Part shown: in pieces, positions 3,123 through 64,000 of the stretch
How the letters are laid out: each line of letters opens with the position of its first letter
Numbering within the stretch: position 1 is the stretch's first letter
Source: Rosa chinensis
Lineage: Eukaryota; Streptophyta; Magnoliopsida; Rosales; Rosaceae
Assembly: GCF_002994745.2 (NCBI RefSeq)
Contig: NC_037089.1
Coordinates: 16,076,141 to 16,140,140 of the forward strand
Direction of reading: 5' to 3'
Length of the DNA stretch: 64,000 nucleotides
The notes under the pieces: model-generated
Databases searched by the model: none
Seen by the model: the letters and a program-made list of their open reading frames with translations, nothing else
Told to the model about the DNA's origin: nothing
Translations under genes and position numbers: made by a program

Positions 3123-3749
3123 ATGGGTGGTGATGAAAGTGAAGGTCAGAGTTCCAGAATCAATGAGGTCCAAAAGGTTGAGGTTTTTGTTCGAAGTTCA
3201 GATGGTGGTTCTTTTGGGGGTACGAAACTTAATGGGACCAATTTTCGAACGTGGAAGAAGATTATGTTTGTCCACCTTCGTGGCATACACAAGATGGGGC
3301 ATGTGACAGGAACAACCAAAGCACCTAGTGAGGAAGATCTTGTGTGGTACCAGAAGGAGAAGGAACTTGAAAGGGTTCATGTATGAGAGCTTGATGAGAA
3401 GCATAGCAGTGCCAAGGGAGAATTGCTCAGAATGACAGATCCTCCTAGTCTGAACACAGCTTTTACATACATCCGCAAGGATGAGTCTCAGCAGGAAAGT
3501 GTCAAGCATGCACAGGTTGAAGTATCTAGCCTAGCCATTCAGGCCAAGTCACCAGCACCTTTCCTTCAGCAGCATAATTCAGTTCCACTTCATCAGCATA
3601 ATTCAGTTCCACTTCATCAGCAAGGTCTTCCACCGGGCTTCACCAACCGCCCTCGTCCTCAATACTCTTATTGCAATGACCTTGGACATGTTCAAGAGAC
3701 TTGCTGGAAACTAAATGGGTACCCCAAAAAAGAAAGGTTATCGTCCTAA
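3123..3749 (+). pseudogene. Copia gag remnant with broken zinc knuckle
   Basis: The N-terminal half (3123-3386) has the plant copia gag start, with LNGTNFRTWKK for the usual L.G.NY..W. A TGA at 3384-3386 follows. The same frame resumes with the C-terminal part (3387-3749) that carries PPSLNTAF and the zinc knuckle. The middle of gag (the W-rich region expected before the knuckle) is absent, so the gene is internally deleted. In the knuckle the first Cys of CxxCxxxxHxxxxC is Tyr (YSYCNDLGHVQETC), so zinc binding should be lost. A second frameshift near the A-rich run at about 3724-3736 separates gag from the downstream frame. Confidence 0.85.
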
Positions 3750-3804
3750 GGCGAAGGCAGCTGCTGTTCAGTTGGTCCAAGAACCAGATTTCTATGGCGT
3801 GGCT

Positions 3805-4178
3805 TGACAGGATCATCATACAGCAGGTGGGGCTGCTCCTACAGCCTCTATAGCTGGTCGTGGTAAGATTGGTATGGCTTTAAAGGTTTCTAACTTTGTT
3901 GGTTCTGATACATGGATTATTGATTCTGGTGCCTCCAATCATATGACTTATGATAAATCATATTTTACTGAATTGTCTTCCCCACCAGTGTCCTATGTCA
4001 CCAATGCCAATGGTGAGGCTTTTCCTGTGTTAGGGTCAGGGTCAGTGCGTATTACTCCCACTTTAGGACTACATAATGTGTTATATGTGCCTAACTTGTC
4101 TCATCACTTGATATCTGTTCCACAGTTGAATACTGAGTCTAAATGCTCAGTAACCTTTTATCCTATATATATATATAT
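3805..4178 (+). pseudogene. Copia aspartic protease remnant
   Basis: The active-site motif DSGASNHMT is present at about 3921-3947, followed by the hydrophobic LYVPNLSHHLISV typical of copia proteases. A TGA at 3805-3807 lies upstream in the same frame. The frame is lost at a TA microsatellite (4164-4178), after which the integrase frame continues in another phase. The protease was normally part of one gag-pol polyprotein; here it is cut off from both neighbours. Confidence 0.85.
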
Positions 4179-5231
4179 GTGATTTTTCAGGATCTTCTCA
4201 CCAGGGAGTTAATCGGTCAGGGGTATCTGAGAGGCAGGTTGTTCCATCTGGATCAGACATACGCAGGGGAGAAACCAGGAGCACAGTCCCGTGCCGCTTT
4301 GACTTTGAATTCTGACAAGCTAAGTGAAATTTGGTTGTGGCATCGCCGTTTAGGGAATCCATCTTTTAGTCTTATGAGAAAAACCATGCTTACTCTGTTT
4401 ATTGGTGTGGATGAGTCTGCTTTACATTGTGAAACATGTGTCTTGGCCAAGAGTCATCGTGCTACTTATTCTCCTAGTGTTTCTAATAAAAGTGTTATTC
4501 CTTTTGAGCTTATTCATTCTGATTTTTAGGGACCTTCTAGAGAACCCAATGTGTCCGGTATGAAATATTTTGTGTTGTTTATTGATGATTGTAAGAGATT
4601 GTCATGGGTTTCTCTTCTTAACACCAAAGATGAAGTCTTTCCAGCTTTTCAAACTTTTCGTACTCTTGTTCAAACACAATACCATAGCACCATTAAAGTC
4701 CTTCGTTCTGACAATGGGGGAGAATATGTTAATCATGTTTTCCAAGAGTTTTTCAAAACCCATGGGATTGTTCACCAAATCACATGTCCACAAACACCAG
4801 AACAAAATGGAGTGTCTGAAAGGAAAAACCGTCATTTACTTGATATGGCTCGTGCCTTTCTCTTTAGTGCTCATATGCCTAAGTATCTTTGGGGCGATGC
4901 TATCCATGCTTCCTCCCATCTTATCAATCGTCTTCTATCTAGTGTCCTTCAGGGAAGAATTCCATTTGAGGTTCTTGCATCTCATGTCTCCTTACCTTCA
5001 TTTCATAATCTTCCAGCTCGTGTCTTTGGTTGTGTTGCTTTTGTCCATATTCCTAAAAACCAGCCGTCTAAGTTGGATGCCCGAGCGCTTAAGTGTGTGT
5101 TTGTGAGCTATGGAGGTTATCAGAAAGGGTACAAGTGCTATCATCCACCAACCAGAAAGTACTATGTCACTATGGATGTTACTTTCTTTGAGGACATGAG
5201 TTATTTTTCCTCCTCAGATACAGCTCTTTAG
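4179..5231 (+). pseudogene. Copia GAG-pre-integrase and integrase remnant
   Basis: The pre-integrase region has LWHRRLGNPSF and the HHCC-type zinc finger (HRRLGN then CETCVLAKSH). An in-frame TAG at 4527-4529 falls between it and the integrase core. The core keeps the DDE signature: FIDDCKR, then RSDNGGEY, then PEQNGVSERKNRH. The downstream region has RVFGCVAFVH and ends at an in-frame TAG (5229-5231). Apart from these stops the frame is the same as that of the RT region. Confidence 0.88.
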
Positions 5232-7232
5232 GGGGAGAATTCATATTTTGAAGAGCTGTATCATGGAGAAGGGGAGGAATCAGAAAGTGGAGAAGGAGGT
5301 ATTTTGACGGATCCAGTTGAGAGCATCAGCTCATCACCTCCAGAAGCAGAAGCTCCAGACATCCAGACACCAGTTTCAATCACTGAAAATGCAGTTGAAG
5401 ACACAACTGCCCCTCCTGCCATCACTTCTACCCCTGACCCACAACTTCCTAGTACTGAAGATCACCCATTTGAGGCATGTCCACCCACTGGTACTAGCAA
5501 TAGTGAGTATAATGTTGAGCAATATGTGTTACCAAATAGGACCACTCGAGGTCAATCAGCCAAAAGATATGAACCTACTCTTACTACCAAATCAAAATAC
5601 CCAGTAGCCAATTATATGTCCACTAGGAGGTTGTCTAAATCATATGAATCATTTGTGAATCAAATATCTGCTGTATCAATACCTAATAGAGTGCAGGATG
5701 CATTGGGGGATCCAAAGTGGAGGAAGGCAATGGAGGAAGAGATGGAGGCGTTGCAGAAGAACAATACTTGTCAACTTGTGCCTCCACCACAAGGCAAGAA
5801 GGCTGTAGGTTGTCGTTGGGTTTTTACTGTGAAACATAATGCAGATGGATCAGTGAATCGGTACAAAGCACGCCTTGTAGCAAAGGGGTTTACTCAGACG
5901 TATGGTATAGACTACGATGAAACGTTTGCTCCTGTTGCCAAGATGAACACTATTCGGGTTCTGCTATCATTTGTTGCTAGTTTAAATTGGCCACTCCGAC
6001 AGTTTGATATCAAGAATGCTTTTCTTCATGGAGAGTTAGCTGAGGAAGTGTACATGAGTCTTCCACCTAGGTATGTAGTTGCTTCTCCTGGTGATTTTGT
6101 ATGCAAATTGAGAAAGTCTCTGTATGGTCTCAAACAATCGCCTCGTGCTTGGTTTAGGAGATTTTTACAGTTCATGACAAAGGTTGGTTATAAACAGAGC
6201 AACTCAGATCATACCTTGTTCCTCAAGCATCAACAAGGGAATGTAACAACTCTAATTATTTATGTGGACGATATGGTAATCACCGGCAGTGATACTGTTG
6301 AGATGGATAAACTGCAGAGACAGCTAGCCTTTGAGTTTGAGATGAAGGACTTGGGTGAACTTAAGTATTTCTTAGGAATTGAGGTAGCCAGGGGGAGAGA
6401 AGGGATCTACCTGTGCCAGAGGAAGTACGTTCTTGACTTGTTAACAAAAACAGGTTTGTTGGATTGCAGACCTATTGATACCCCTATTGAGCAGAATCAT
6501 TGTTTAGCTGAGTATCCAGATTAGGTACCTACTGATCGAGCTCGCTATCAGAGGTTAGTTGGGCGCTTGATTTATTTGGCTCATACTAGACCAGATGTTG
6601 CATATGCAGTGAGTGTGGTGAGTCAATTCATGCATAACCCAAATGAGAGTCACATGGATGCTGTTATGAGAATTTTAAAGTACCTGAAGTCAGCTTCAGG
6701 AAGGGGAGTATTGTTTTCTAAACACAACAACATCCTTGAGGTTTGTGGCTTTACAGATGCAGATTGGGCTGGAAATATTACAGACAGGAGGTCAACATCA
6801 GGTTACTTTACCTTTGTGGGAGGTAATTTGGTTACATGGAAGTGTAAGAAACAGAAAGTTGTGGCACGATCTAGTGCTGAGGCCGAGTATAGAGGTATGA
6901 CTCATGGAGTGTGTGAATTGCTGTGGCTGAGAAACATGTTATGTGATCTGGGTTTCAAACTCAAAAGTACTATGCAATTGTATTGTGACAACAAGGCAGC
7001 CATTGATATATCACAGAATCCAATACAACATGATCGTACTAAGCATGTGGAGGTTGATCGTCACTTTATAAAGGAGAAGCTAGATGCCAAAATTATTAGC
7101 TTTCCTTTTGTTCCAACTGAAGAGCAACTTGCAGATATACTTACCAAAGGAGTTTCCAGGAAGGAATTTTATGACTCACTAAGCAAGTTGGCATGGTTGA
7201 TGTGTATGCGCCAACTTGAGGGGGAGTGTTAG
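5232..7232 (+). pseudogene. Copia reverse transcriptase and RNase H remnant
   Basis: The RT has the copia landmarks in order: WRKAMEEEMEAL, VGCRWVFTVK, YKARLVAKGFTQ, FDIKNAFLHG, KSLYGLKQSPRAW and the catalytic IIYVDDMVITG. An in-frame TAG at 6522-6524 separates RT from RNase H (6567-7232), which keeps FTDADWAG, SSAEAEYRG and YCDNKAA. The last residues stop five bases before the purine tract and the 3' LTR. RT itself (5304-6524) is uninterrupted. Confidence 0.9.
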
Positions 7233-32829: not shown

Positions 32830-32953
32830 TCTCTCTCTCTCTCTCTCTCAAAAAAAAAAAAAACCAACCAGAACGACACCGTCTTGTGCCGCCGGCGTCA
32901 TGGCCTCGTCCTCCGGAGAAGATCCATTGTAATGATCAATGCTAGCCACAACC
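32830..32953 (+). promoter_or_regulatory. MAPKKK5-like leader with TC tract and two uORFs
   Basis: A (TC)n run at 32830-32849 is followed by an A13 run. Two upstream ORFs precede the main start. uORF1 is 32900-32932 (10 codons, MASSSGEDPL). uORF2 is 32932-32970 (12 codons); its ATG overlaps the stop of uORF1 (TAATG) and it ends inside the main coding sequence in another frame. Translation of the main ORF would need leaky scanning or reinitiation. Regulation is inferred. Confidence 0.6.
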
Positions 32954-35900
32954 ATGCGTTGGTTGCCTAGCTTTGCTTCCTCATCATCATCTGCTTCGTC
33001 TTCGTCGCCAAAAAAGAAGGCCAGGGAGGACGGCGGGTGGATTTTCCGGTCGAGGAGGAAGGCCGCGCAGTCGAGGAAACTGCTCAATTTGGGGAGAGAC
33101 AATGACGGTGGAGCTATAACCAAATGCTCCAGCGCGCCGGGGTCGGAATCCGCGCTGGCCAGTCCGCAGCCGCTTCCTTTGCCGGAATCGGCCATCCGCC
33201 GAGAGACGAGGTGTTCTCGCTGTAAGTCATGGGGACATGAGAACTGCTTCCTCTCCCCGGCTCCCAGGTAAATAAATAGATTTCCCAATTTGATTTTCGA
33301 GAAAAAGCTATTCTTATTTGCTCATTGATTGCACAAAAAAAAAAAAGAAAGCAATTTTTTCTTTGAATTTATATTCTTTAAATTTGTGTTCAATGGATGC
33401 GTATATTATCTTGGCTCGTTTTGGAGGAACAAATGATAAATGGTACGGAGATTGTTAATTTACAAGCACCTCAGATCTTCATATTGGTGTGATTGCATAA
33501 TTTGTTGCAGATTTTAGCTTTAGAAAGTTTCATCATTTGTACATATGCTGATGACTTATGCTATGAGTTTGGTGTTGAAAATGTGTTTCAGTGTGTTTTC
33601 TTGGCGAGACACTCCAAAGAATAACGTTCGAGTACGTGAGACAGTGTCGTCTAGGAGGAAGAATCAAGATCGAAATCGTTTACAGATCCCTGAACATGAC
33701 TTCAGGCTCGATGTTCCTGTTAGAAGTGCACCCACTAGTCCATGCGCAAGTCCTAGATTCAGCCCACGCAGACCAAGTGCTGCTGATTTGTGGGCTCCGT
33801 CCAGAAATCAAGTCTGGTCTGCACCGGAGATGACTACTAATGATATGACTCAACCTCCCCCTGCCTCATCAGATGTATTTAGTAATGAAAGTTCCCCTAT
33901 AAACAGTCCCACGGCTAGAAGTCCCCTTCGACCCCCACAAGCATCATCCCCATTGCATCCCCGGCTAGAAGTCCATCCATTGCCTCTGCCTCCTGGAGCA
34001 AGCCTTCCTTCACCTAGTGTACCATCACCACAACCTCCACTCACACCTAAGCCAGAGCCCCAGCCGATTAAAGGGCAATGGCAAAAGGGAAAGCTTATTG
34101 GTCGTGGCACCTTTGGCAGTGTTTATGTTGCTACCAATAGGTACATACAGTTCCTTGTACAGGTGATGATAGCTCTTCTTTGCTTGCGGTAATTGCTGAT
34201 TAACTTTTTTGTTTTTGTTAACAGAGAAACTGGAGCTTTATGTGCAATGAAGGAAGTTGAACTACTTCCTGATGACCCGAAATCAGCAGAGTGTATAAAG
34301 CAGCTACAGCAGGTTATTATCCAGTATCTTTCACATTTTTCTAAGTATGCATAGCCAATGTTTTTACCTTGTGACTTGTAGGTTTAGCTTCCCTGGATAA
34401 CTTTTTCTAGATTATCAGTTGAACCTCTGTCGTATCAGTATGTCGTATGGATGCTTTCAGTTTCTTGCACTTCTCAACTTCTGAGTTGTTTGTGTAAATT
34501 GCTTATTGGACTAGAAATATTGGTTTTGTATGCTGGTAAAATCTGCATATAACTATTTCAGAAATAGGGATGTAGACATTAGATGAAATTTCTACATACA
34601 TTGTATTAAAGGATGTATTCTGCTAGGTTGTCACTGTGGTTATTACTCATACCATCTTTTTATCAGGAAATCAAAGTCCTCAGCCAGCTCAAGCATCCTA
34701 ATATTGTGCAGTACTATGGAAGTGAAATTGTGAGTAACGTCTGCTTTTATATTAAGCATCCAGGCTCATGTTCTTCCATTGGACTACTCCTGAAACAAAA
34801 TACAAAATACTTTCATGTATACGCAGGTTGAAGATCGGTTTTTTATATATCTGGAGTATGTTCATCCTGGTTCTATTAACAAATATGTTCATGAACACTG
34901 TGGAGCCATGACAGAAGCTGTTGTTCGCAGTTTTACTCGCCATATAGTCTCTGGGTTGGCTTACTTGCACAGCACAAAAACAATACACAGGTACTCTCAG
35001 CATAAACATAAAGTTTTTCTAGCAAAATTGGAATCTGAGATTAGACTTGATGTAGCAAATAAAAACAAGTCATTAACCTATGCCCAATTTTTGTCATTTT
35101 GAAATAAGCAAGATTTGTTTTCGGCAAAAGGGCCTATAGCATTGTGCTTTGGGTCAATTTTAATGCATATCATTTTTGTTTCTTTTGATAGGGACATCAA
35201 AGGGGCTAATTTGCTTGTGGATTCATGTGGGGTTGTCAAGCTAGCTGACTTTGGAATGGCCAAACATGTGAGTTCTGGTTCTTTCTTCACTCATTTTCTT
35301 AGGTTCTCATTGATCATACCCCTTTTGCTCCTTGACATGTTATCGAGTTGATGTCTCTTTGCATTATGCCATTGTATTGCTTTGTAGGATATGTTAATTA
35401 CTATGATCCTGCGCTTACATAGTTTCAATTACTTGTTGTGTAGCTTTCAGGACATGTAGGGAATCTTTCCCTAAAGGGAAGTCCATACTGGATGGCTCCA
35501 GAGGTAACCTTTTCTAATCAATATGTTGTGTGTAGAGGGCTATGCGTCCTATGCTTTCTGATACTGATACAGTTTTTATCCAACAGCTGATGCAATCTGA
35601 GATGCATAAAGATAACAGCTCTGATTTGGCTCTTGCTGTTGATATATGGAGTTTGGGTTGTACTATAATTGAAATGTTCACAGGAAAACCTCCATGGAGT
35701 GAGTATGAAGGGGTAAGCACATTATGTATTTCTATAGTCATGAAACTTTTCTTCTTGTGCTTTGAACGAGGCTAGTCAGTTGTTTCATTGTTTGTGTCCA
35801 AGGTCTAATTTCTTGTCAAACAGTTGAAACTCGTAATGTGCCTAGTGAGATGCTGGGTCTGACTTTACCTAATCCTTTCTAGTTTGGCCTCTTGACCATT

Positions 35901-36416
35901 CTGAATGATATATTCTGGTTCAAGTTGCATGTATATATTGTTTTCTGACTGCATCTAAACCCCCTTTGAATGCTAAACTCTTGTATATTAATGCAGGCTG
36001 CAGCTATGTTTAAAGTTATGAAGGATACTCCACCATTTCCAGAAACATTGTCACCTGAGGGTAAGGACTTCCTTAGGTGCTGCTTCCAAAGAAATCCTGC
36101 TGAGAGGTCAACTGCTGCAATGCTATTAGAACATCGATTTATAAAAAACTCCCAGCTGCAGGAAGTCCCATCTACGACCTATAATGCCTCTAATGGGATG
36201 AATTTCTTGGTAACTATAAGGCCTTGCCACCCCACTTGTTTAGTTAAATTGTAGTCATTGGCGAAGAAAATTCAATTGTATTTATTTGTTTTACAGTCTG
36301 TGTTATGTTGACAGGAAAGACCCCAGACTCCAATTGAACTTGAAAGAAGACTTGATAGTTCATTGATGATTCCCAGCATTGGCATGCAATTAACTACGGG
36401 AAAGGCGGCTCTCTGA
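32954..36416 (+). CDS. MAPKKK5: MAPKKK5-like MEKK-type protein kinase
   Basis: Ten coding exons (32954-33267, 33592-34140, 34225-34312, 34667-34729, 34827-34990, 35192-35267, 35444-35503, 35587-35712, 35997-36209, 36315-36416) splice to 584 residues with all phases consistent. The start MRWLPSF matches Arabidopsis MAPKKK5, so I chose this ATG over the in-frame one at 32939. Residues 1-270 are disordered and rich in Ser/Pro ([17 protein letters not shown] is conserved). The kinase starts at about residue 270: [11 protein letters not shown], Lys297 in [11 protein letters not shown] with D394, DFG at 412-414, MAPE and GTIIEM-type helix F. All catalytic residues are present. In Arabidopsis MAPKKK5 passes chitin signals from PBL27 to MKK4/5 and MPK3/6. 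The C-terminal tail after the kinase is shorter than the Arabidopsis one (716 residues in total there). Confidence 0.93.
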
Positions 36417-37642
36417 GTGGTAAGATTTGCACTCTGTATACTCCATTTGCATACTTGGACCACAGATGAGTGCATTCCGCATTTCGTAATTGCCAAGCCT
36501 TGCATTCTGCCGGATCCAACTTCTTGCAAAATCTTCTCTTCAGTGACAATCTCCTTCTGAAACCTCCGGTTTAAACAGAGTCCAGCTCCATTATCTTCCC
36601 TTCATCCTGCCTTTAAGGCGCGTCCCAGAATACATCATCTAGCTTGGCTTGCAATCAAAACACCACCCTTCTGCAAATGCTCTGTGTGCTGTGTCAGACC
36701 ATGGTGCTGAAAAGTAATGCGGCATTTTCAGAAGACCGTATGGGAAGGGAAAGGATTACAGCTGCCTTTGGTCTAAAGAGAAAGCGGCTCCCGAATTGTA
36801 GGCTTAACAGAAGATTGATGTTGTGGTAGGTGATTTCCAGCCATAGAGTATTACTATAGTAGGTTCTTTCCCTCATCCTATTTCGATGGTGGAAGTTTCT
36901 CTTTCTGTGGAAATTAGAAGCAGCACTTTTTGTACACCACATAACTAAGTTTAGAGCTTCAGCAGAAGAACTAGTCTTTTGACAAGGCCTTCTGAAGGTC
37001 ATATACAATGCTTTCACTTCATGTTCAATTGTTGGAGTAAAAAATTTAACGTCTGTATAAGATGGGCTCAAATGTGACATGGTTTTTCAGTTTCTGTGTT
37101 TCTTTCTTTTTGCTTCATCGTAGACGATTTTGTTTCCGCTGATATATGCCAAGTCGATGGAAGAGACCATTTAGTTTTATAATCCTTTTGTATTTACCAG
37201 ACAGTCATTATGTTCAAAAGTTTCAAACCCTTAGAACTCCAAAACTTAGAGTAACCAAGTACAGTAAATATTTTTGACTTGAGCGTTGCGTAGCTAAACT
37301 TAAAAGCCCCACACCAATTTAAAGCTACTTTTAAGAAGGGAAAGCGATGACATACTGAAAAACACAGGAAAAAAGGAAGAAAGATCAAAGGAGGTCTACA
37401 TGATATTAATTATTAAACCATATACCAATTGACTTGACTCATAAGTTACCAACCACTATCATCGATCTCTGCCTCGCCTGACCACCAACGGGAGCAAGCC
37501 AGGCAATTTGATCCGCCGCTATATCGTCTAACTGCGACGGAGTTTCAAAACAACTTGAATCCAAGTGTCCTGTGAAGTACTCAAACCTCCATTGCCTGCA
37601 GCAGGATTGGATCTTCTGAATGTGCAGGGAACAAGGAATAAG
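36417..37642. other. MAPKKK5-like 3' UTR and spacer to the CRK gene
   Basis: No gene seen. A 23-bp stretch at 37323-37345 is identical to coding sequence of CRK exon 1 (38029-38051). Confidence 0.45.
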
Positions 37643-40600
37643 ATGAAGGACACATTGGTTTCAACAATAGACATAGAGCAGGAGGTCGAGGGAATTGAAG
37701 AAAATCAACCTGACATTAAAGGTAAATGCGAAGTACATGAACCTCCATCCCGATTCTTCAAGAGGCCGTTCTCAGTTCCTTCACCAGCAAAGCATATGAG
37801 GGCGCTTCTAGCAAGGGTGCTGGGGTTTTTTAAGTGGAAGGAGCAGGGTAGCATGACAAGGCTTCAGAAGAGTTTCGGGTATGTGACTGGAGAACAGGTT
37901 AAGGAGCTTGGAGAACAGGTTGAGGGCGGAACGGGGCTAGATAAGAGCTTTGGGTTCTCAAAGAATTTGATTAAAATGTATGAGCTTGGAAGTATGGTTG
38001 GGTTCGGGCATTTTTCCTACACTTGCATAGCTACTTTTAAGAAGGGAAAGCTTGAGGGCCACCATGCTGCTGTCAAGGTCATCTCCAAAGCCAAGGTTTG
38101 CTACCTTCGATTCATTTGTTCTAGTGAAGTTAAATTTACTATTGTGGGTTCTATCTATTTTGAGGACTACTACTTATGCTAAATACTGTCCATTGGCTGT
38201 TCAAATTGGACCTTGGACAGACCAACCGATCTCTACTTTTAATGACTGTGATAATTTTGTACGAAAGACAAACTATTTGGTTTTATGATCTTATAGTTTA
38301 TACCAGAAAGAGGTCATGTTTTATCTGCAAGGATGGTTTTCTCACCATTATTTGCATCAGTTTTGTGATATTAGCCAAGTTCTTCTTGCAAACATAACTT
38401 GGGTCAGGGGTATTCAAACTGCTGCATCCTCTTTCATTATGTTGTTCGGACATGCAGTTTTCGTTTTATTCTAGTGCATTTGTGCCATTTGTCTGGTAAT
38501 TTGTAGAGTGGTATTTCCATGACTCATATCTTATTTTATGGTTTTGATGTATGTTTCTTTTGACAGATGGCTACTGCTATTGCCATTGATGATGTGAGAA
38601 GGGAAGTAAAGATATTGAGGGCTTTGAAAGGACATAACAATATAGTAAAATTTTATGATGCATATGAAGACCATGACAATGTCTACATAGTGATGGAGTA
38701 AGGAACAAAGGATTACGTGATTCAATGATGGGATCCATCACTTTCTTGTATAATTTTTGTGTTACTGGACTTGAACATTTCCCATATTTTTCAGATATTG
38801 TGCAGGAGGGGAGCTCCTAGATAGTATACTTGCAAGGTATTTCTTCAGTGGCTGCTAGATATGAATGAATGCATCTTGAATCCACTTGAGGGACTTGGAA
38901 GCAAGAAATTCATGTGAAATAATGTTTGAAAGTCATCGATCACCAACTGATGTAATTTTAAGATTTTTTTTTCTTTTCTTTCCTGCAGGGGTGGGAAATA
39001 CCCCGAGGATGATGCAAGGACCGTCATGATACAAATATGAAGTGTTGTGGCATTTTGCCACCTCCAGTGTGTGGTTCATAGGGATCTTAAACCTGAGGTA
39101 CATTGCCTTCTTGATTGAAATTTAATCGTGCAGGATGTCAGAAATACTGGCGAATATGATTGTTAATTTGTTTTACTTAATAACCTGTTCAGCAATATAC
39201 AGCAACATATTGCACAGTTGCACTTATTTTTTTTCCTCCAAATATTTGCATTCTTTTCTTTTCATGTACTCATTCAAGTATTCTTAATTACCGGATCAGA
39301 ATTTTATGTTTATATCGAGTGATGAAGATTCACAGATGAAGGCTATAGACTTTGGCTTGTCAGATTATGTCAAACCTGGTTGGTCAACTCTTCTTCAACA
39401 CATGGACTATGGACTTGCTGTTTTATATCTGTAAATTTGGTCAAAGTTTTCATATGAATTATATGTGCAGATCAAAGGCTTAACGACATTGTTGGTACTA
39501 AGTACCATGTAGCCCCAGAAGTTCTACATAGGTCTTACAGTACAGAGGCTGATATGTGGAATGTAGGGGTGATTGCTTATGTTTTATTGACTGGCACCCG
39601 TCCATTTTGGGCTCAAACTGCATCTGGCATTTTTCGTGCTGTTCTGAGAAGTGATCCAAGTTTCGATGAATCACCTTGGCCATCTCTGTCTACTGAAGCA
39701 AAAGATTTTGTTAAGCGCCTATTGAATAAAGACCATCGAAAAAGAATGACTGCTGCTCAAGCTCTACGTGAGTCCCTCATACACTCCAAACAAATGTTTC
39801 ATCATGTTTATAGTTCAATGTGTCACCCACTGCTTTCTATTGCAGATCATCTCTGGCTTAGAAACTATAATGATCTTAGAGTTCCTCTGGATATTCTAAC
39901 ATTCAAACTCATGAAGGCTTATATGCATTCATCAACTCTCCGGAAATCTGCTTTAGGGGTGTGTATATGATAGTATTTTCAATTATAAGTTTATACCGAC
40001 ATTGTTCTGGGGTAACTATTAGAAGTTCTTATTCCTTCAAGTTTGTTCTTGCTAACCCTTTCAAGTATCAATTTTACATGATCTTTTTTTTTTTTCCTCG
40101 TTTCCTTTTTCATAACTTCCTTTAGTTCTCTCAATGTTGGCTTTTTGGCAGGCTCTTTCCAAGACATTGACTCCGGAAGACCTTTCTTATATGGAGGAGC
40201 AGTTTGAACAACTGGAACCAGACGGCAGTGGCACAATAGGCTTAGAAAATATTAAAACGGTTGGTTTCCTTCAGTTTCTCTTTACTTACTAAAATCAACC
40301 TACTGTTGGTAATGCTCCCGAACTTTTTTTATTGTCAGGCCTTGATGAAAAATGCAACTGATGCAATGAAAGAGGGACGATATGAGGATCTTCTAGCATC
40401 AGTAGGTGCCTTGACTATGGTTGTGCAGTTGATTAACTAGTATGTTGTTATCTCTTATTAGATCCTTGTTGCCTCTTTGGTAGCTTAATGCATTGCAATA
40501 CAGAAGAATGGCGTTTAAGGAATTTTGTGCAGCCACATTGTGTGTCCACCAACTTGAGGCTCTTGATCAATGGGAGCAACAATCTCGTTATGCCTATGAA

Positions 40601-41001
40601 CTTTTTGATAAGGATGGCAACAAGGTTGTTATCACGGAGGAGCTGGCTTCGGTATGTGTGCATATGGATTATATTTGCGTCTTTCCTATACCTTTTGTTG
40701 AATCCTTCTACTATTGGGTTGCTTTCTGCATCTACTTGATTCACTTTCGCCTCTCTCATGGAGCCATACTTTAGTTGATATTATTGGTGAGCTTTGAACT
40801 AACAATAAATTCTTGCGCAACATGTATGTGTGTACATTTTTGCAGGAGCTTGACCTCGGCCCTTCTGTCCTTGTTCATGCTTTTCTTCGTGATTGGATTA
40901 GGCAAACTGATGGGAAACTTAGTTTCGTTGGGTTTGTCAAGTTGTTGCATGGGGTTTCTGGCCGCACCTTGCGAAAGGTGAATGATAGTACGTTGCAATG
41001 A
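37643..41001 (+). pseudogene. CDPK-related kinase (CRK), interrupted by one premature TGA
   Basis: Eleven coding exons: 37643-38095, 38567-38697, 38795-38836, 38989-39097, 39300-39378, 39471-39767, 39846-39958, 40152-40259, 40339-40401, 40484-40651, 40846-41001. All introns are GT-AG and phases agree, giving 573 codons. The kinase has FGFSKN, a glycine loop GFGHFSYTC (third Gly is Ser), AAVKVI, HRDLKPE, AIDFGLSD and [10 protein letters not shown]. The degenerate EF-hand region with [24 protein letters not shown] and VSGRTL follows. This is the CRK order. The TGA at 39038-39040 (codon 226, after TVMIQI, 24 nt before FCHL) cuts the protein before the HRD loop. The usual MG(x)C myristoylation start is missing: the frame upstream has no ATG before 37643. 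It may be a young pseudogene, a truncated allele or a base error. Confidence 0.85.
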
Positions 41002-41569: not shown

Positions 41570-41735
41570 TGTTGGAGAGGAAAGATCCCACATTGAAAAA
41601 GTGACAAAATATGATATAATTTATAAGTGGGTGGCTCTTACTTAATTGTACCGAGACCTTTTGTGATTAAAATCCATAAGCAAAGTTATATTATATTTTG
41701 TCACTTTTCCAATATGTGATCTTTTCTCTCCAACA
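41570..41735. repeat. Solo-LTR-like or foldback element, 166 bp
   Basis: Starts TGTTGGAGAGGAAAGATC and ends GATCTTTTCTCTCCAACA. The inverted arms are about 50 bp with few mismatches (41570-41620 against 41685-41735). TG...CA ends suit an LTR; long inverted arms suit a foldback MITE. No target duplication is seen. The span 41256-41569 between it and the TRIM holds further repeat-like sequence without genes. Confidence 0.5.
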
Positions 41736-42667: not shown

Positions 42668-44994
42668 ATGGCCGGAGGTGAGCTTGTTGCAGGGGCAGCT
42701 CTGGGATTACCATTTAATATCCTGTATGATGTGATTAAGGAAGTGATGAACAAGACTACAATGTTTAAACCCCTTCTCGGAGATCTCAGCTCCACCATGG
42801 AATCGTTACAACCACTGATCACTGACATAGCCAAGCACAACAGGGACTTGGGACGTCCAGAGGAGGAGCTACAAAGTTTCAAGAAGCAAATGGAGAACGG
42901 CGCAGAGCTTGTTCGAAAGTGCTCCAAGGTTGGTTTATGGACCAGCTACAAGAAATATGGATACGCCAACAAGTTAATGGACCTAGACAAATCTCTCAAC
43001 AGATTGTTGGCTATACTCAGCGTGCAGGGAATAAGGGCCGGGATGGAGACCTTGGTGGTGGTGAAGGAAACACTGACTACGGTGAGGAGAATTGAAGACA
43101 ATGGTGTTGGTAAAGAAGAGACAGTTGTGGTGCATAATCTGATCGAGTTTCAAAAGGGAAAGCTTATTGGGAGTGGCCCGTTCGGACCTCGCTATGTTGC
43201 CGGCAATAGGTATGTACATACAGATCTATGTAGAGCTGATGATAACGTACAGTTTCTACTTCCTTCGTAAAAGTGATCGATTAGGGTCTAATTTTCTTAT
43301 GTAACAGAGTAACTGGAGCTTTATGTTCAATGAAGGAAGTTGACTTATCTCCCAATGGCTCAATTTCCGCAAAATGTTTAGAGACGGTTTGTATGCATAG
43401 AGATGGCTTTCTACCTTTCCCCATATAGAATTAGCTTCATTTAGTGTGTTTTACTAGACTGTCGCGTGGTGCTAGCTTCTTTGAATGTATGAGTTTGTGG
43501 ATGATGCTGTGTGTTAGGATATCACTAGGCTTCTTAGCTGATGCTTCTTTTTACAGGAAATTAGAGTGCTCACCAAGCTGAGGCATCCTAACATTGTGGA
43601 GTTTTATGGAAGCCAAATGGTGAGTGGTGTGCTCCTTCACGTTTAGGCATTTCCAACATCATGTTTGTCCATTGGAATATTATGCCTGAAATGAATCGTA
43701 TATACTTTCGTGTATATGCAGGTTGGTGATCGATTTTATATATATCAGGAGTATGTCCACCCTGGCTCTTTGAGCAGATATATGAATGAACGTTATGGAG
43801 CCATAACAGAATCTATTGTTCGTAATTTTACTCGGCAGATAATGTCTGGGTTGGCTTACATGCATAGCGAACACATAGCACACAGGTAAAATCACATGTT
43901 GATAGAATCTCATGTGTCACCCTCTGCATGAAGTTTAATAATCTAGGAAAAATGGAATTTGATGCTAGATTTGATGTTGCAAATAAGAATAAGCACTTCA
44001 CCTTTTTTGGATCTGTAAGTATTTATTATATTTTTCGGTTGATATATATAGGAGCATCAAAGGGGCTAATTTGCTTGTCGATTCAAGTGGAATTGTCAAG
44101 CTAGCTGACTTTGGGATGGCACGATTAGTAAGTACTAGATCTTTAATTTCTTCATTCTCAACTCTGATGATCTTCTATTTCTTTGGTTAGCAGATTGATT
44201 CATTCACTGATTACAGTATAGTTGTTGCCATTTCGCGTAGCTTTCAGGGCATGAAGGGAATACATCTCTAGAGGGGGGAAATCCATACTACTGGATGGCT
44301 CCAGAGGTAACTGTTTCTAACCAGTGTGGTTGTCTAGGATCCGGGCTATGTTGCCTGTATATAATACACACGTACCAATACAATGTTCTTCCTGTAGTTA
44401 ATTATTTCTGGGAGGCAGAGTCTTGCTGCTGATATTTGGAGTTTGGGTTGCACAGTTATTGAAATGCTGACCGGAAGAGCTCATCAGAACGCATATGAAA
44501 GTGTAAGCACATCATGTATTTAACCATAAAACTACTTATTACATCTTGTTCTTTGAATGTAGTCAAATATGTGAAGGTCCAAAGGTCTAGTTTCTTGTTG
44601 ATATAGTTGATGCCTTGAAGGTAGCAAGTGATCAGATACTGTTCATCCTTCTAGGATATACTTGGTCCTGTAAAATTCGGTAAAATCTAGCTCTTCATTG
44701 AATCTAGCTCCTTTGATCTGCCTATCGAGTCTTGACATGGATACGAGTTTCGTGTGACACATTCTACACATCATGAAATCTCCTACCGGTTTTCTAAAGT
44801 CTATTATATCAATGCAGATGGAAGCCTTGTTTAAAACTTCTAGTGGGAATGAGGATAATCCAGAGCTTCCGGGAACATTGTCATTGGAGGGCAAGAATTT
44901 CGTAGAATGCTGCTTGCGAATAAATCCTGCAGATAGGCCTACTGCTGCCATGTTATTAGAACATCCATTCTTAACAAGTTCATCCAGGGGATGA
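42668..44994 (+). CDS. RPW8-domain / MAPKKK-type pseudokinase fusion protein
   Basis: Eight coding exons (42668-43209, 43308-43386, 43557-43619, 43722-43885, 44052-44127, 44241-44306, 44398-44502, 44818-44994) give 423 residues in an open frame, all GT-AG. Residues 1-130 are an RPW8 domain: ELVAGAALGLPFNILYDVI, then LGDLSSTMESLQPLI, then GAELVRKCSKV and KKYGYANKLMDLDKSLNRLL. The first helix is hydrophobic, as in RPW8 proteins. Residues about 163-415 are a MEKK/MAPKKK5-type kinase: QKGKLIGSGPFGPRYVA, Lys190 in CSMKEVDL, HPNIVEFYGS, DFG at 302-304 and YYWMAPE. The HRD motif is HRS (Ser284), so phosphotransfer should be lost. Exon 1 holds both the RPW8 domain and the glycine loop, so the fusion is not an annotation artefact. 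Exons 3-5 equal in length exons 4-6 of the MAPKKK5-like gene. The tail after the kinase is absent. Function is unknown; an immune scaffold or decoy is my inference. Confidence 0.88.
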
Positions 44995-45780: not shown

Positions 45781-46890
45781 TATTAATTCGAAAGACCTTA
45801 TTTTAAAAAATGCAAAAGAAACTTGCTGGTTGGAAAGTTGCTTTACTTTCTCGAGGTGGTAAGCTTACTCTGATCAAAGCCAATCTTTCTAGTTTACCAA
45901 ATCATGTCCTCTCTTGCTTTAAGTGCCCTAATACTGATACTTCTGCTTTGAATAATGAGTGTAGAAAATTCTTTTGGGGCAATGATCATTGTTCTCCTAT
46001 TGCTTGGTCTCAAGTTTGTACTCCTAAAGAGAAAGGTGGTCTAGCTAGACATTAGATCTTCTGCTCATTTTAATAAGGCAGCTCTAACTATGTTAGGATG
46101 GAAAGTTCTTACTGACCATCACAATTGATGGGTTAAAATTGTTCGAGCTAAGTATCTGAGAAGAATTCCTTTTGGACTGCTAAGAAAACTGCTTCTTCTT
46201 TCTGTGCTTGGAAAGGTGTTCTTGATTCAAGACCTGTACTTTCTGACGGTATTAGATGGATTGTTGGTGATGGTAGACATAATAATTTTTGGCTTTTTAA
46301 TTGGATCCTGCCTTTTCCTCTGATTAATTTTATTCACGAGAATCAAAGACATGCTATCAATACAAATGACCTTGTTTCGGATTATATATCTAATAATACT
46401 TGGAATGTGCAAAAGCTTAATGCTGTTCTTCCTTCTGATATAGAAGAGAAAATTATTGCTCTTCCTCTCCCTTATTTTTATCAGGAGGATAATATGATTT
46501 GAGGTCCTACTGGGAATGGTAAATTTACTATTAAATCTGCTTCCAATCTTCTTGTTCAACGTACTGTTGCTCATTCAAAAAATAAGTTACTTCTGAGGAT
46601 GTGGGAAACTAATTTGCCTCCAGCCTGGCAGATGATAAGAAATAAACTCTCTACAAGAGATAGAATTTTCTCAAATCTGTATATTGATAGAAGCTGTTCT
46701 TTTTGTCATTCCCAAGTTGAGGATTTGGATCATCTCTTTTTACATTATCAGTTCACTAAAGAAGTTTGGAAGTTGACTTTTCCTAGTTTTTCTATGCATT
46801 CTTGGAATCAAGGTTTTGTTAACTGGCTGGATTATCTTTCATCTTTACATGATCAGAAGCGGTCTACTTATCTTGAATGTGATTAGTTCA
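45781..46890 (+). mobile_element. LINE fragment (end of RT and zf-RVT)
   Basis: 45810-46055 encodes the end of the LINE reverse transcriptase (QKKLAGWKVALLSRGGKL, then CRKFFWG, WSQVCTPKEKGGL). 46599-46886 encodes the zinc-binding zf-RVT region (RIFSNLYIDRSCSFCHSQ, HLFLHY). The frame is broken between them. Both 5' and RNase H parts are absent. Confidence 0.82.
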
Positions 46891-59045: not shown

Positions 59046-59641
59046 GCGCACACCTGCGCATCCTACTTCCCTGCGCACACCTGCGCACGCTGCTGCTCCG
59101 CCTACGTACCCGTGCACCTGCAGCCCTACACCACTGCTGCTGCTCCTGCAGTTTGCCTCCGCTGCTCCTGCACCACTACTACCACCGCAGCCCCTGCTGC
59201 CCCGCATTCGCTGCACGCCTCTACTAGGATTGCTTCGCTCCATCACGCCTGCATCGACACACGCGTGATCCAAATACAAGTAAGTATTCAAAAGAGTAAG
59301 TTTTGAAGTTCCTATAATTCGGAATTTATATTTCTTCTTCTTTTCTCGGGGACTTGAAAACCTCCCTTCTTCTACATCCCACCTTTCTTATAACGTGGGT
59401 TCGATCATTGAAAAGCAGAATCGTGGGGATTCACGCAATTAACGAACTAAGAGCGTTCATAAGACTTCGGACTAAGAGCGTCCGCAAGCATCGATTTATG
59501 ACCTTATAAACATCATTGTTTCGGTCTAATCCAATTTTCTTGGAAATCGATTTCTTGGTAGCATAGCTCGGAAATCTTAATATTTAGTTGTCGTGGAAGT
59601 TTTAACTCCGAAACTAATATATTTCTTCTTCTTACTTCAGG

Positions 59642-60739
59642 ATGTCGAAACTTGACTTTCCTGCACTTACCTCAACTGGCTCGGAATATCATAGTTGGGC
59701 CACGGATGTTGAGCACCATCTCACTTCAAAAGGGATCCTACCCTTAATTCAAGCTCCTAATCCTACTCTCATATTTGAACGTACGGCTACGAATAATGCC
59801 ACCGCCCTCATCTTGATGAGGCGCCACATGGATAAATCACTCCGATTGGAGTACATGGCAATCAAGGATGCTAGAGAATTATGGGTTGCGCTAGAAGAGC
59901 GATTTGGTAATATCAAGGATACCCTCCTCCCTGACTTGAAAGTTCAATGGGGCAATCTACGATTCGCCGACTTCAAGTCTGTAGCTGAATATAATTCAGA
60001 AGTTCTACGCCTCAAAACCATGTTGGGGTTCTGTGGACAACCCGTCACAGAGCAAGAACTAATTGAGAAAACTCTCTCCACCTTCCCCGTCTCAGCAATT
60101 TTGCTCTCAAAGCAATATCGAACGGAATTTGATACTAGACGGATCACGAGATTTCATCAGCTCATTACTGTGATGTCTGTAGCTGAAAAACATGATAATA
60201 TCCTCGTGAGAAATTATAATTCAAGGCCTATCGGAACTAAGAGCGTTCAGGAGGCGAATTATAATCATGCACGCAAAGGAGGGCGTAAGGAGCGGAACCC
60301 TAACAATAAGGGACATAACGGACGTTTTTGTCCATATAACCGCCCTACAAAGGAAGGAAACCGCCATAATGGAGCGGGAACACGTGGCAACAAAAGCCAA
60401 CGTGGGAGAGGGGGACACAAGGCCTCCGGCCATAGGGGTGGCGCCAATGTCCAACACGGACGCCAATCTCGTCCTCATGCACAAGATGCATCTCAATTCA
60501 AGGGAGGAAATCGTAATGATGCATGCCATAGATGTGGATCTATTGAACATTGGTTCAAGCAATGCAATGCAAGCAAACAATTGGCTGCACATTACAAGGC
60601 ATATAGAGAATTTCGAGAACATGAGACCTATCTTGCCGAAGATGTAGAAGAAGAAGGTGATGATGCACACGCCAATCTCACCATAGCGGACTTCAAATCT
60701 GACAAAGAATTGCACAAGGATGCTGCAGATTTTGATTAG
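59642..60739 (+). CDS. Copia gag protein, 365 residues, apparently intact
   Basis: UBN2-type gag: LDFPALTSTGSEYHSWATDV at the start, LRLEYMAIKDARELWVALEE, then IEKTLSTFP. A basic Gly/Arg/Asn-rich stretch (residues 205-290) leads to the zinc knuckle CHRCGSIEHWFKQC. An acidic tail follows and ends with TAG. The ATG lies one base after TTACTTCAG, which looks like a splice acceptor. No stop interrupts gag. Confidence 0.85.
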   Translation: MSKLDFPALTSTGSEYHSWATDVEHHLTSKGILPLIQAPNPTLIFERTATNNATALILMRRHMDKSLRLEYMAIKDARELWVALEERFGNIKDTLLPDLKVQWGNLRFADFKSVAEYNSEVLRLKTMLGFCGQPVTEQELIEKTLSTFPVSAILLSKQYRTEFDTRRITRFHQLITVMSVAEKHDNILVRNYNSRPIGTKSVQEANYNHARKGGRKERNPNNKGHNGRFCPYNRPTKEGNRHNGAGTRGNKSQRGRGGHKASGHRGGANVQHGRQSRPHAQDASQFKGGNRNDACHRCGSIEHWFKQCNASKQLAAHYKAYREFREHETYLAEDVEEEGDDAHANLTIADFKSDKELHKDAADFD

Positions 60740-61118
60740 TATAGTCCTTTACTTTTCCAAGAATCATGTAATGGCAATTATGCCTTAAATCAATAAAATG
60801 ACTTATTGTATTAACTTTTTCCCTCTAGGCGTACTCAAGAGTACTTGTGATGTCTAGGCAAGGTTTGATCTGAGAGAACGGTTTTAAAAGTGAGCAACGC
60901 TCCACCAAAATCTCGCCTTACCTTACCTGGTCACAACCAAATTGAAATTACCGAACGGATTAAGTGACTACGATTTGTCTACTATTTGATTTTATATTGG
61001 ATTAGATTTTAGTCAAGAAACTTTGATGTAATCATTGGCTATCATTAATAAAGTGTCGACTTATTTTATCCAAATGTCTTGGACATAATATTCTAAATTC
61101 GAACTTTATTTTTTCAGT

Positions 61119-64000
61119 ATGTTTCCCGGAGAGCTCGAATGCCTCGTGGACAGTGCCACTACACATACCATCCTTCGAAATAGACAGCTATTCCTATGGA
61201 TGGCGCCTACTCGATCTTCTGTGACTACGATGGCTGGACCATCTCAATTGATTCATGGTCGAGGACCAGCTCAATTTATGTTGCCTAATGGCACTACTTT
61301 GAATGTCACCGAAGCTCTTTATGCTCCTAGGGCAGGAAGAACCCTATTGAGCTTCAAAGATATAAGAGCCAATGGTTTTCATGTGGAAACACATTGTGAG
61401 AATGGACAAGAGTTCCTTTGCATCACCTCTAATGACTACGGACATAAACGAGTATTAGAGAAACTTATGTGTCGCTCTAGTGGGTTGTATGCAACCACTA
61501 TTCGAGTCATTGAATCCAACCATGTCATGAGAGATGATTTATGGGATTTCGACACGTATAGGCTTTGGCACGACCGTTTGGGACACCCAGGTCGTGACAT
61601 GATGATCCGTATATTAAAGACTTCACACGGACATCCCTTTTTCAGAACGAAAGGAAGTAAAACTCGAATTTTGGATCAAGGAGGAGCACCTGCGCCTCAC
61701 GGCGCCTTTCCCCCTCAAGTCCGGCCATCCCCGGTCGGCGCCGCCATCCCCCTGCGGCCCAAGGGTGGCCTTGACGCCACCCCTGCTCCCTTGACTCCAA
61801 TTTTTACTTCTCAGGTCCATTGTGACTTCATGGCTCAACCAAAATCCTCATTGGTTGTTTCCAAAGCCCATCATTCGTTCTGCAAAGCCTGCTCTTTAGC
61901 AAAGTTAGGATCGAGACCATCCTATGCAAAGGACACCAAAGAAAATATACCATTCTTACAAAGAATCCAAGGTGATATTTGTGGACCTATTCAACCACCA
62001 TGCGGACCATTTAGATATTTTATGGTGTTGGTTGATGCATCGACACGCTGGTCACATGTCATGCTATTGTCCACCAGGAACGCTGCATTTGCTAAACTCC
62101 TAGCACAAATAATTAAGTTACGGGCTCACCACCCTGATCATCCCATTAAGTCTATAAGATTAGACAATGCTGGGGAGTTTACATCAAAGACTTTTGATGA
62201 TTATTGCATGTCCATTGGGATTGATGTTGAACATCCTGTTCCTCATGTTCATACCCAAAATGGTCTCGCAGAAGCCACCATTAAATGACTACAAATGGTT
62301 GCTCGAGCATTGGTGATGCGCACCAATCTCCCTATTTCTGCTTGGGGCTATGCAATATTGCATGCAGCTGTGCTTATTCGTCTGAGGCCCACTGCCACTC
62401 AACCCTTCTCTGCGTCCCAGATGGTTACTGGGTATGAGCCTGATGTCTCACACTTACGCATATTTGGGTGTGCAGTCTATGTGCCTATTGCGCCGCCACA
62501 GCGCACCAAAATGGGTCCTCAAAGACGATTAGGCCTTTATGTTGGATATGATTCTCCAACAATTATCCGCTACATAGAACCCTTGACAGGCGATCTCTTT
62601 ACCGTTAGATTTGCGGATTGTCACTTCGATGAGACAGTCTTCCCGTCGTTAGGGGGAGATAGGAACATAAATGTTCAACAGGAACGACAGGAATTGTCGT
62701 GGTCTGTCCCCACTATGTCTCATCTTGATCCCCGAACCGCACAGTCAGAAATTGAAGTGAGGAGAATTATCGATCTTCAGAACGTAGCAGATTCGATGCC
62801 TGATGCGTTTTCTGATATCGCTAAAGTGACAAGATCACACATACCTGCTGCAAACGTGCCTGCAAGGATTGATGTCCCTAAAAGTAGAGGACATGACGCC
62901 AACTCAAGAATGCATGAGCATGGCGCCAACGTCTCACCTCTCAATGATGGTGACGTTATGGCTAGGCCCACGGCTCCCGCAAAGAAACGCGGGAGGCCCA
63001 TAGGTTCGATGGATTCTCGCCCAAGAAAGAAAGCTAGTTCGGCACAAAACAATCCATTAATCATCGATGTAAATAATCCATCTCATGAGAATATTCCGGA
63101 TTATGGTTATGTCCAAGAGACATCATTGGGGGACGCTCCAATGTCAGAACCAACTCCAGAGAATAGAGAGATCTCCATAAATTACACTAGTGTACATGAG
63201 ATGATGGATAGAAATTCTATGGCGATTGATGATGCATTTGCATATCATATTGCAAAAGGAATTATAGAATATGATGATATCGAACCTCGCTCTGTTGAAG
63301 AATGTCAACGAAGAGCGGATTGGCCTAAATGGAAAGATGCGATCCAGGTTGAATTGGATTCACTAACAAAGAGACAGGTATTTGGGCCTGTAACGCAGAC
63401 ACCCCCAAATGTAAAACCTGTTGGCCATAAATGGGTCTTTGTTAGAAAGCGTAATGAGAAAAATGAGGTTGTTAGATACAAAGCCCGCCTTGTGGCGCAA
63501 GGTTTCTCACAACGCCCTGGAATTGACTACGAGGAGACATATTCTCCCGTAATGGACGTTATAACGTTCCGCTACCTTGTCAGTTTGGTAGTTTCCGAAA
63601 AACTTGACATGCAGCTTATGGATGTGGTTACAGCATATCTCTATGGGGATCTAGATTCAGAGATATATATGAAGGTTCCAGATGGACTTCAATTACCCAA
63701 ATCAAGTGGCTTTAAACCACGGAGCGCGTTTTCAATAAGACTAAAACGCTCACTATATGGATAAAAACAATCCGGACGGATGTGGTATAACCGTCTAAGT
63801 GACTACTTGATTGGGAAGGGATATATTAACAATGAAATATGCCCATGCGTGTTCATTAAAAGAACAAGTTCCGGATTTGCAATCGTAGCAGTTTATGTCG
63901 ATGACATGAACCTAATTGGAACTCTAGATGAGTTGAAGGAAACTGCTAAATACTTGAAATCCGAATTTGAGATGAAAGATCTTGGGAAAACACAGTTTTG
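61119..64000 (+). pseudogene. Copia pol, two nonsense mutations, cut by the window edge
   Basis: Protease LVDSATTHTIL (the usual DSG/DSAT form), then GAG-pre-integrase LWHDRLGHPGRDMM. Integrase has HCDFMAQ..., FCKACSLAK, DICGPIQPPCGP, VDASTRW, RLDNAGEFTS and HTQNGLAEATIK, so the catalytic residues are present. A TGA at 62286-62288 follows directly. RT starts after 63295: DWPKWKDAIQVELDSL, YKARLVAQGFSQRPGIDYEET, VVTAYLYGDLDSEIYMKVP. A TAA at 63762-63764 breaks it at LYG; the frame continues with VYVDDMNLIG at 63894-63923. The window ends in the RT palm. Confidence 0.88.

Follow-up and report, generated by a model that had tools for sequence, protein, structure and literature searches.

We describe in Rosa chinensis an intact gene that encodes an RPW8 domain, of a kind associated with immune cell death, joined to a protein kinase domain of MAPKKK5 descent whose catalytic aspartate has been lost, and the same fusion is conserved in Argentina and Rubus. 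We propose, with a probability of roughly 0.4, that its product works in the manner of MLKL, known as a cell-death protein of animals, though built from other parts, the RPW8 bundle acting as executioner and the pseudokinase as latch and bait. The window, that is, the whole stretch of 64,000 nucleotides analysed, corresponds to C2:16076141-16140140 in the 515-Mb rose genome.

Gene structure and domain composition

The gene (42668-44994, forward strand) consists of eight exons (exons 2 to 8 are given as in the exon table, the Arg175 codon from a residue comparison):

42668..43209, forward strand: exon 1, identical to P0001, with the RPW8 domain (residues 5-139, positions 42680-43084), a short linker and the glycine loop
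43190..43192, forward strand: codon of Arg175 (V175R; the glycine-loop Val of MAPKKK5 changed to Arg)
43308..43386, forward strand: exon 2, with the retained VAIK-type Lys190
43557..43619, forward strand: exon 3, 63 bp, the length of its MAPKKK5 counterpart
43722..43885, forward strand: exon 4, 164 bp, the length of its MAPKKK5 counterpart
44052..44127, forward strand: exon 5, with the catalytic loop HRS (Ser284 codon at 44053-44055) and the retained DFG; 76 bp, as in MAPKKK5
44241..44306, forward strand: exon 6
44398..44502, forward strand: exon 7
44818..44994, forward strand: exon 8 and stop codon

All introns run GT..AG, and the open exons encode 423 amino acids followed by a stop codon that ends at 44994. 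The predicted product agrees at every residue with the Rosa chinensis database entry P0001, whose label is putative MAPKKK, STE-STE11 family. The initial annotation had seen here one intact gene combining an RPW8 domain and a MAPKKK-type kinase, with exon 1 open from the RPW8 domain through to the kinase glycine loop, and the Pfam search of the 423-residue translation agrees with it. RPW8 matches residues 5-139 (112 bits, E = 2.2e-32, far above the curated cut-off of 30.4 bits for PF05659) and Pkinase matches residues 161-417 (196 bits, E = 1.2e-57, also far above its curated cut-off). The joint lies within the single open exon 1, where the RPW8 domain passes through the short linker into the glycine loop. 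The protein stops six residues past the Pkinase match and therefore lacks a long C-terminal tail.

At E values up to 1, Pfam returned only RPW8, kinase-type families and DUF7792 (below its cut-off) for the fusion. Neither NB-ARC nor LRR was found within that limit, which sets the protein apart from RNL helper NLRs, and there was no match to the HeLo, DUF1221 or MLKL_NTD families by which plant MLKLs are recognized. Compared with PDB sequences, the RPW8 part hits the CC domain of At5g66900, a solved structure (1.4e-5), and, more weakly, ADR1 (0.089). AlphaFold2 gave a pLDDT of 38.7 for the full-length fusion, too low for fold comparison, and a helical but unreliable model of the RPW8 part (pLDDT 45.6).

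That an error of assembly or gene prediction merged two genes is hardly credible. Related models do show an insert resembling a retained intron and a short C-terminus, but the joint lies inside one open exon and recurs in Argentina P0002 and in P0124, which are separate sequences of different source.

Loss of catalytic residues

The catalytic-loop pattern was recognized in 120 of the 124 proteins compared and reads HRD in 115, HRS in three and HRN in two. Among these 120 kinase-bearing proteins, HRS (D284S) is confined to the three fusions P0001, P0002 and P0003. The glycine-loop Val is present in 113 of 117 pattern-matched proteins (seven of the 124 were unmatched) and is replaced by Arg in P0001, P0002, P0003 and P0124, the four fusion sequences that show the loop. 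Altogether, ten sites that are invariant in 26 sampled MAPKKK5s have undergone the same change in each of the three fusions, V175R and D284S included. The combination of HRD, DFG and glycine-loop Val that characterizes MEKK-type kinases is thus absent from the fusions, the kinase is very probably dead, and the earlier suggestion of a working MEKK that relays signals fits poorly with a catalytic Asp replaced by Ser in every fusion with a kinase.

Lys190, Glu208, Asn289 and Asp302 (the Asp of DFG) are retained in all three fusions, the DFG motif being complete in two and reading DFA in Argentina. Since Lys190 and the DFG Asp are kept, the domain may still bind nucleotide or have weak activity. 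An active MAPKKK directed by RPW8 as sensor or localizer would agree with these four residues and with the Pkinase score of 196 bits, but wherever sequences of this fusion (type A below) show the site, Ser stands in place of the catalytic Asp and Arg in place of the glycine-loop Val, and we consider such a kinase very unlikely.

Orthologues in Argentina and Rubus

Searches for relatives recovered the same domain order in other genera, a check that the initial annotation had proposed. Argentina anserina P0002 (382 aa) is the same fusion, with RPW8 at 2e-32 and Pkinase at 4.5e-50; its gene model ends short of the last exon. Rubus argutus P0003 (327 aa) holds the kinase half, and its start Met aligns to rose residue 126, within the end of the RPW8 match. 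A further sequence, P0124 (192 aa), was found with a 174-residue query spanning the fusion joint and carries the source tag 'lgn', which we take to denote the Logan assembly of public reads. It contains a full RPW8 domain (2e-33) and the glycine loop and then runs into an intron; it is therefore genomic and no proof of transcription. The 56 residues that P0124 shares with P0003 agree save for three small differences, and from this we infer that P0124 is exon 1 of the Rubus orthologue and P0003 a 5'-short model.

Both domains appear in the Pfam column only for P0001 and P0002 among the best 120 of 3408 proteins (E <= 0.001). The one Fragaria RPW8 match, P0123, is without a kinase and says nothing on an absence of the fusion from Fragaria. 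The pseudokinase state probably predates the split of Rosa, Argentina and Rubus.

Origin of the kinase half

A MAPKKK5 gene lies on the same strand 6 kb upstream of the fusion, and DNA similarity between the two genes starts at the fusion joint:

32939..36218, forward strand: MAPKKK5 (P0050, HRD intact), likely tandem parent of the kinase half (tblastn, exon table, DNA matches)
43151..43343, forward strand: first stretch of DNA homologous to MAPKKK5 (34082-34260), starting at the fusion joint (blastn, 72%, E = 6e-21)
43942..43993, forward strand: intronic stretch homologous to a MAPKKK5 intron (35018-35069; blastn, 81%, E = 2e-7)

The kinase domain of the fusion is 63% identical (160/254) to that of the window's MAPKKK5 and about 55-60% identical to MAPKKK5s of many plants among the matches listed. 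The exons of the two genes agree in order and intron positions, and three are of equal length (63, 164 and 76 bp). Identity, intron positions and homologous DNA together give the kinase domain its MAPKKK5 descent. The glycine loop had been called nearly identical to that of the neighbour; this was overstated, as FQKGKLIGSGPFGPRYVAGNR and the MAPKKK5 stretch are alike at 15 of 21 positions and the Val to Arg change is among the six differences. Since the DNA homology covers intronic stretches, the kinase half looks like a DNA copy and not a retrocopy. Neither the N-terminal region nor the C-terminal tail of MAPKKK5 is present, and the kinase half is likely a partial tandem copy.

In the kinase tree the fusions form one clade (100/100, the bootstrap being not fully settled), with a stem of 0.24 and tips of 0.22-0.25. 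The AU test rejected neither a grouping of the fusions with five Rosaceae MAPKKK5s (p = 0.447) nor one with Rosa MAPKKK5 (p = 0.454), and three control groupings were likewise not rejected (p = 0.108, 0.131 and 0.194). Because the tree leaves the attachment point open, descent from the neighbouring MAPKKK5 rests on the tandem position, the intron positions and the DNA matches.

Constraint on the two halves

The RPW8 half is better conserved than the kinase half (about 90% against 73-75%): the RPW8 part of Rosa is 89.9% identical to that of Argentina and 89.2% to P0124, and the kinase part is 75.4% identical to Argentina and 73.1% to Rubus. The MAPKKK5s of Rosa and Prunus are 94.3% identical. 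Over 201 kinase columns, with 26 MAPKKK5s as reference and columns gapped in any fusion dropped, the three fusions differ among themselves at 24 of 110 MAPKKK5-invariant sites and at 47 of 91 variable sites (p = 1.5e-5). When the fusion coding sequence was simulated neutrally at 0.27 changes per site (half of the Ks to MAPKKK5, equal branches being assumed), none of 1000 runs stayed free of stop codons, the mean being 9.4 stops; at lower divergence 3 (0.15), 12 (0.10) and 107 (0.05) of 1000 runs were stop-free. The dead kinase half is still under constraint and does not look like a decaying relic. The pairwise Ka/Ks between the fusion kinase and MAPKKK5 is 0.45 (NG86) or 0.50 (YN00) over 258 codons. 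Because MAPKKK5 hardly changes, the value on the fusion branch must be higher, so that the kinase half has indeed undergone a degree of relaxation or diversification since it was fused; evolution as fast as these ratios indicate is also what relaxed constraint would yield.

The RPW8 part might be functional alone, as in RPW8-only proteins, with the kinase half a slowly decaying passenger. The lower identity of the kinase, its long stem and tips in the tree, the lost catalytic Asp, the Argentina model that stops before the last exon and the broken state of the other rose RPW8-MAPKKK5 joint (see below) would all suit such a passenger. It is nevertheless unlikely, given that the Rosa frame is open across eight exons where no neutral run at 0.27 was, that variation within the clade avoids the MAPKKK5-invariant sites and that the kinase has been retained in three genera.

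Constraint on the kinase fold would also be expected of a dominant negative or scaffold, in which RPW8 is a mere anchor at membranes and the dead kinase titrates or scaffolds MKK4/5 and RLCKs, tuning the MPK3/6 cascade; the parent, an immune MAPKKK, suits this role too. We regard it as rather unlikely, as the RPW8 half is conserved above the kinase half, beyond the need of a plain anchor, and the C-terminal region of MAPKKK5 which, according to the available text of PMC12170986, is phosphorylated by RLCKs is missing from the fusion.

Relation to known systems and possible mechanism

Like plant MLKL (AtMLKL; PMC9950082, PMC10951266, as described in their available parts), the fusion has a C-terminal pseudokinase, assigned here by sequence, and in front of it a putative four-helix domain of cell-death type. 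Plant MLKL has HeLo/DUF1221/MLKL_NTD, whereas the rose protein has RPW8 (PF05659) and a MAPKKK5-derived kinase. Pm13 of Aegilops longissima unites a four-helix domain and a kinase in one resistance protein, but, in the available text of PMC10951266, the domain is MLKL_NTD and the kinase has all key conserved residues, where the rose protein has RPW8 and a kinase that is very probably dead. The RPW8 domain is shared with RPW8/HR proteins and the RNL helper NLRs NRG1 and ADR1; unlike in the latter, a pseudokinase replaces NB-ARC and LRR. With MAPKKK5, of MEKK/STE11 type, the fusion has in common a kinase domain (63% identity) and its intron positions, but it has RPW8 in front and is without the MAPKKK5 N-terminal region, C-terminal tail and catalytic Asp.

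The pairing of the two domains is not wholly new. A survey by Zhong & Cheng 2016 (PMC5039405) names an RPW8-Pkinase_Tyr architecture in strawberry and, in its available text, terms the kinase domain strawberry-specific. This is the same domain pair, known here from the survey's description, which in that text gives neither kinase family nor catalytic state nor conservation. The part available of PMC6778783 also describes protein kinase domains as unusual components of strawberry resistance genes and reports many clustered RPW8 genes. The initial annotation's view that this is not a described family is thus right in part only: the available text of PMC5039405 has nothing on MAPKKK5 origin or kinase death, and MAPKKK5 descent, conserved catalytic loss and three-genus spread of an RPW8-kinase fusion were not found in the accessible parts of the open-access literature searched.

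The MLKL-like reading would run as follows. Within an exon, an RPW8 domain came to stand in front of a partial MAPKKK5 tandem copy, whose kinase would have become a pseudokinase by the time Rosa, Argentina and Rubus diverged. The RPW8 four-helix bundle would act on membranes as a cell-death or channel module, with the dead MAPKKK5 domain as its latch and bait. When a MAPKKK5-targeting pathogen effector, or a MAPKKK5 partner, bound or modified this putative decoy, the bundle would be freed to oligomerize. In pattern-triggered immunity, MAPKKK5 is a phosphorylation target of PBL27, BSK1 and PBL19 (PMC12170986, available text); because an RPW8 bundle is joined to a dead MAPKKK5 domain, the fusion would be an MLKL layout with an immune-hub-like bait, and it may have a part in immunity. 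We also count PMC6684095, in its accessible part, among the support for an MLKL-like mechanism. A wider proposal, that the rose family rebuilt an MLKL-like executor from a helper-NLR-type RPW8 bundle and a killed MAPKKK5 serving as latch and effector bait, perhaps with repeated RPW8 capture, seems to us somewhat doubtful.

If the MLKL-like reading is true, the layout of four-helix death domain plus kinase-like latch arose apart from plant MLKL and Pm13, from other domain families, and such a separate origin would allow the latch idea to be tested on independent parts. It would also mean an NLR-free guarding of MAPKKK5, with bait and executioner on one polypeptide. The fusion gene is a concrete candidate for rose and bramble resistance work.

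RPW8 donor and genomic neighbourhood

The rose genome gave 114 RPW8 matches (rows, not genes), of which 106 are above the cut-off, and 46 of the 114 rows, by hand count, lie at C2:15.50-16.05 Mb, before the window. This dense array (C2:15495770-16047067) contains frames with and without an NB-ARC P-loop and ends about 29 kb before the window. Its last member (C2:16046636-16047070), which has a P-loop, shares 53% identity with the RPW8 domain of the fusion and lies about 72 kb away from it. Classified by frame, 41 sampled rose RPW8 domains comprise 20 with an NB-ARC P-loop, one with SH3 and 20 others; the eight nearest to the fusion in the BLASTP list come from NB-ARC P-loop frames in seven cases and from an SH3 frame in one. 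A tree of 46 rows (these 41 domains, mainly the top-scoring of the 114, and five fusion sequences, the window copy L002 being left out) placed no rose domain as a clear sister of the fusion's RPW8. The donor was probably close by, in the RPW8/helper-NLR array near MAPKKK5.

When the genome was searched with the full-length fusion protein (101 matches; 99 of 1759 candidates scored), an RPW8 domain running into a glycine loop was found only in the fusion gene itself among the matches listed. Three other RPW8 rows reach residues 161-176, and no glycine-loop pattern is present in the six frames of their stretches.

MAPKKK5 is AT5G66850 in Arabidopsis (PMC7696906, PMC10445769, available text). In locus number it is close to At5g66900, and the window holds an L25-like gene (slightly below cut-off) and a LOB-domain gene. 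We take these two to be AT5G66860 and AT5G66870, and At5g66900 to be NRG1.1. If these locus identities are right, RNL genes have been near MAPKKK5 for a long time, and with such proximity an RPW8-MAPKKK5 fusion would come easily.

Possible traces of mobile DNA also occur in the window. An imperfect inverted repeat (41570-41735; 71%, 172 aligned bases) upstream of the fusion is perhaps a small mobile element. Reading of the open frames shows a reverse-transcriptase-like remnant just 3' of the fusion (45807-46886) and Copia-like polyprotein frames at 3387-7232 and 59618-63764.

Other RPW8 fusions

A second type of joint, type B, is seen in P0121 (254 aa) and P0122 (253 aa), where RPW8 (2.3e-25 and 8.5e-26) is followed by the MAPKKK5 proline-rich linker and a glycine loop that is canonical in the former and altered in the latter; both sequences run into an intron that, compared by eye, resembles that of rose MAPKKK5. 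Rose carries a broken type B copy at C7:60461500-60469500 (L087/L095), with internal stops and 76% identity to P0121 residues 39-250; its kinase matches reach only the next exon within the 8 kb examined. This second joint rules out that the rose RPW8-MAPKKK5 fusion is single-copy; type A (as in Rosa, Argentina and P0124) is present once in rose among the matches listed. The broken relic shows that RPW8-MAPKKK5 fusions can be short-lived.

The RPW8 tree places type A (Rosa, Argentina, P0124) and type B (P0121, P0122) in separate subclades by forks of 80/83 and 88/83, neither strong, and a single clade of both is not rejected (AU p = 0.083). These results are compatible either with one old fusion or with two separate ones, and repeated capture of RPW8 domains by MAPKKK5 is possible.

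Between MAPKKK5 and the fusion lies a gene (37559-41000, forward strand; Pkinase match at 39482-39769) that we take to be CDPK-related-kinase-like. Its start matches tail repeats of nearby RPW8 proteins (43%, 8e-10, L039; 53%, 5e-9, L027), the RPW8 domain itself gave no tblastn match in region 37559-41000, and an apparent in-frame stop, TGA at 39038-39040, was read by eye. By these matches the gene looks like another, broken RPW8-to-kinase joint. An open frame elsewhere on C2 (L006, C2:61320273-61323662, positions 1300-2235) encodes RPW8 (1.1e-29) followed by SH3_1 (4.4e-6, above cut-off).
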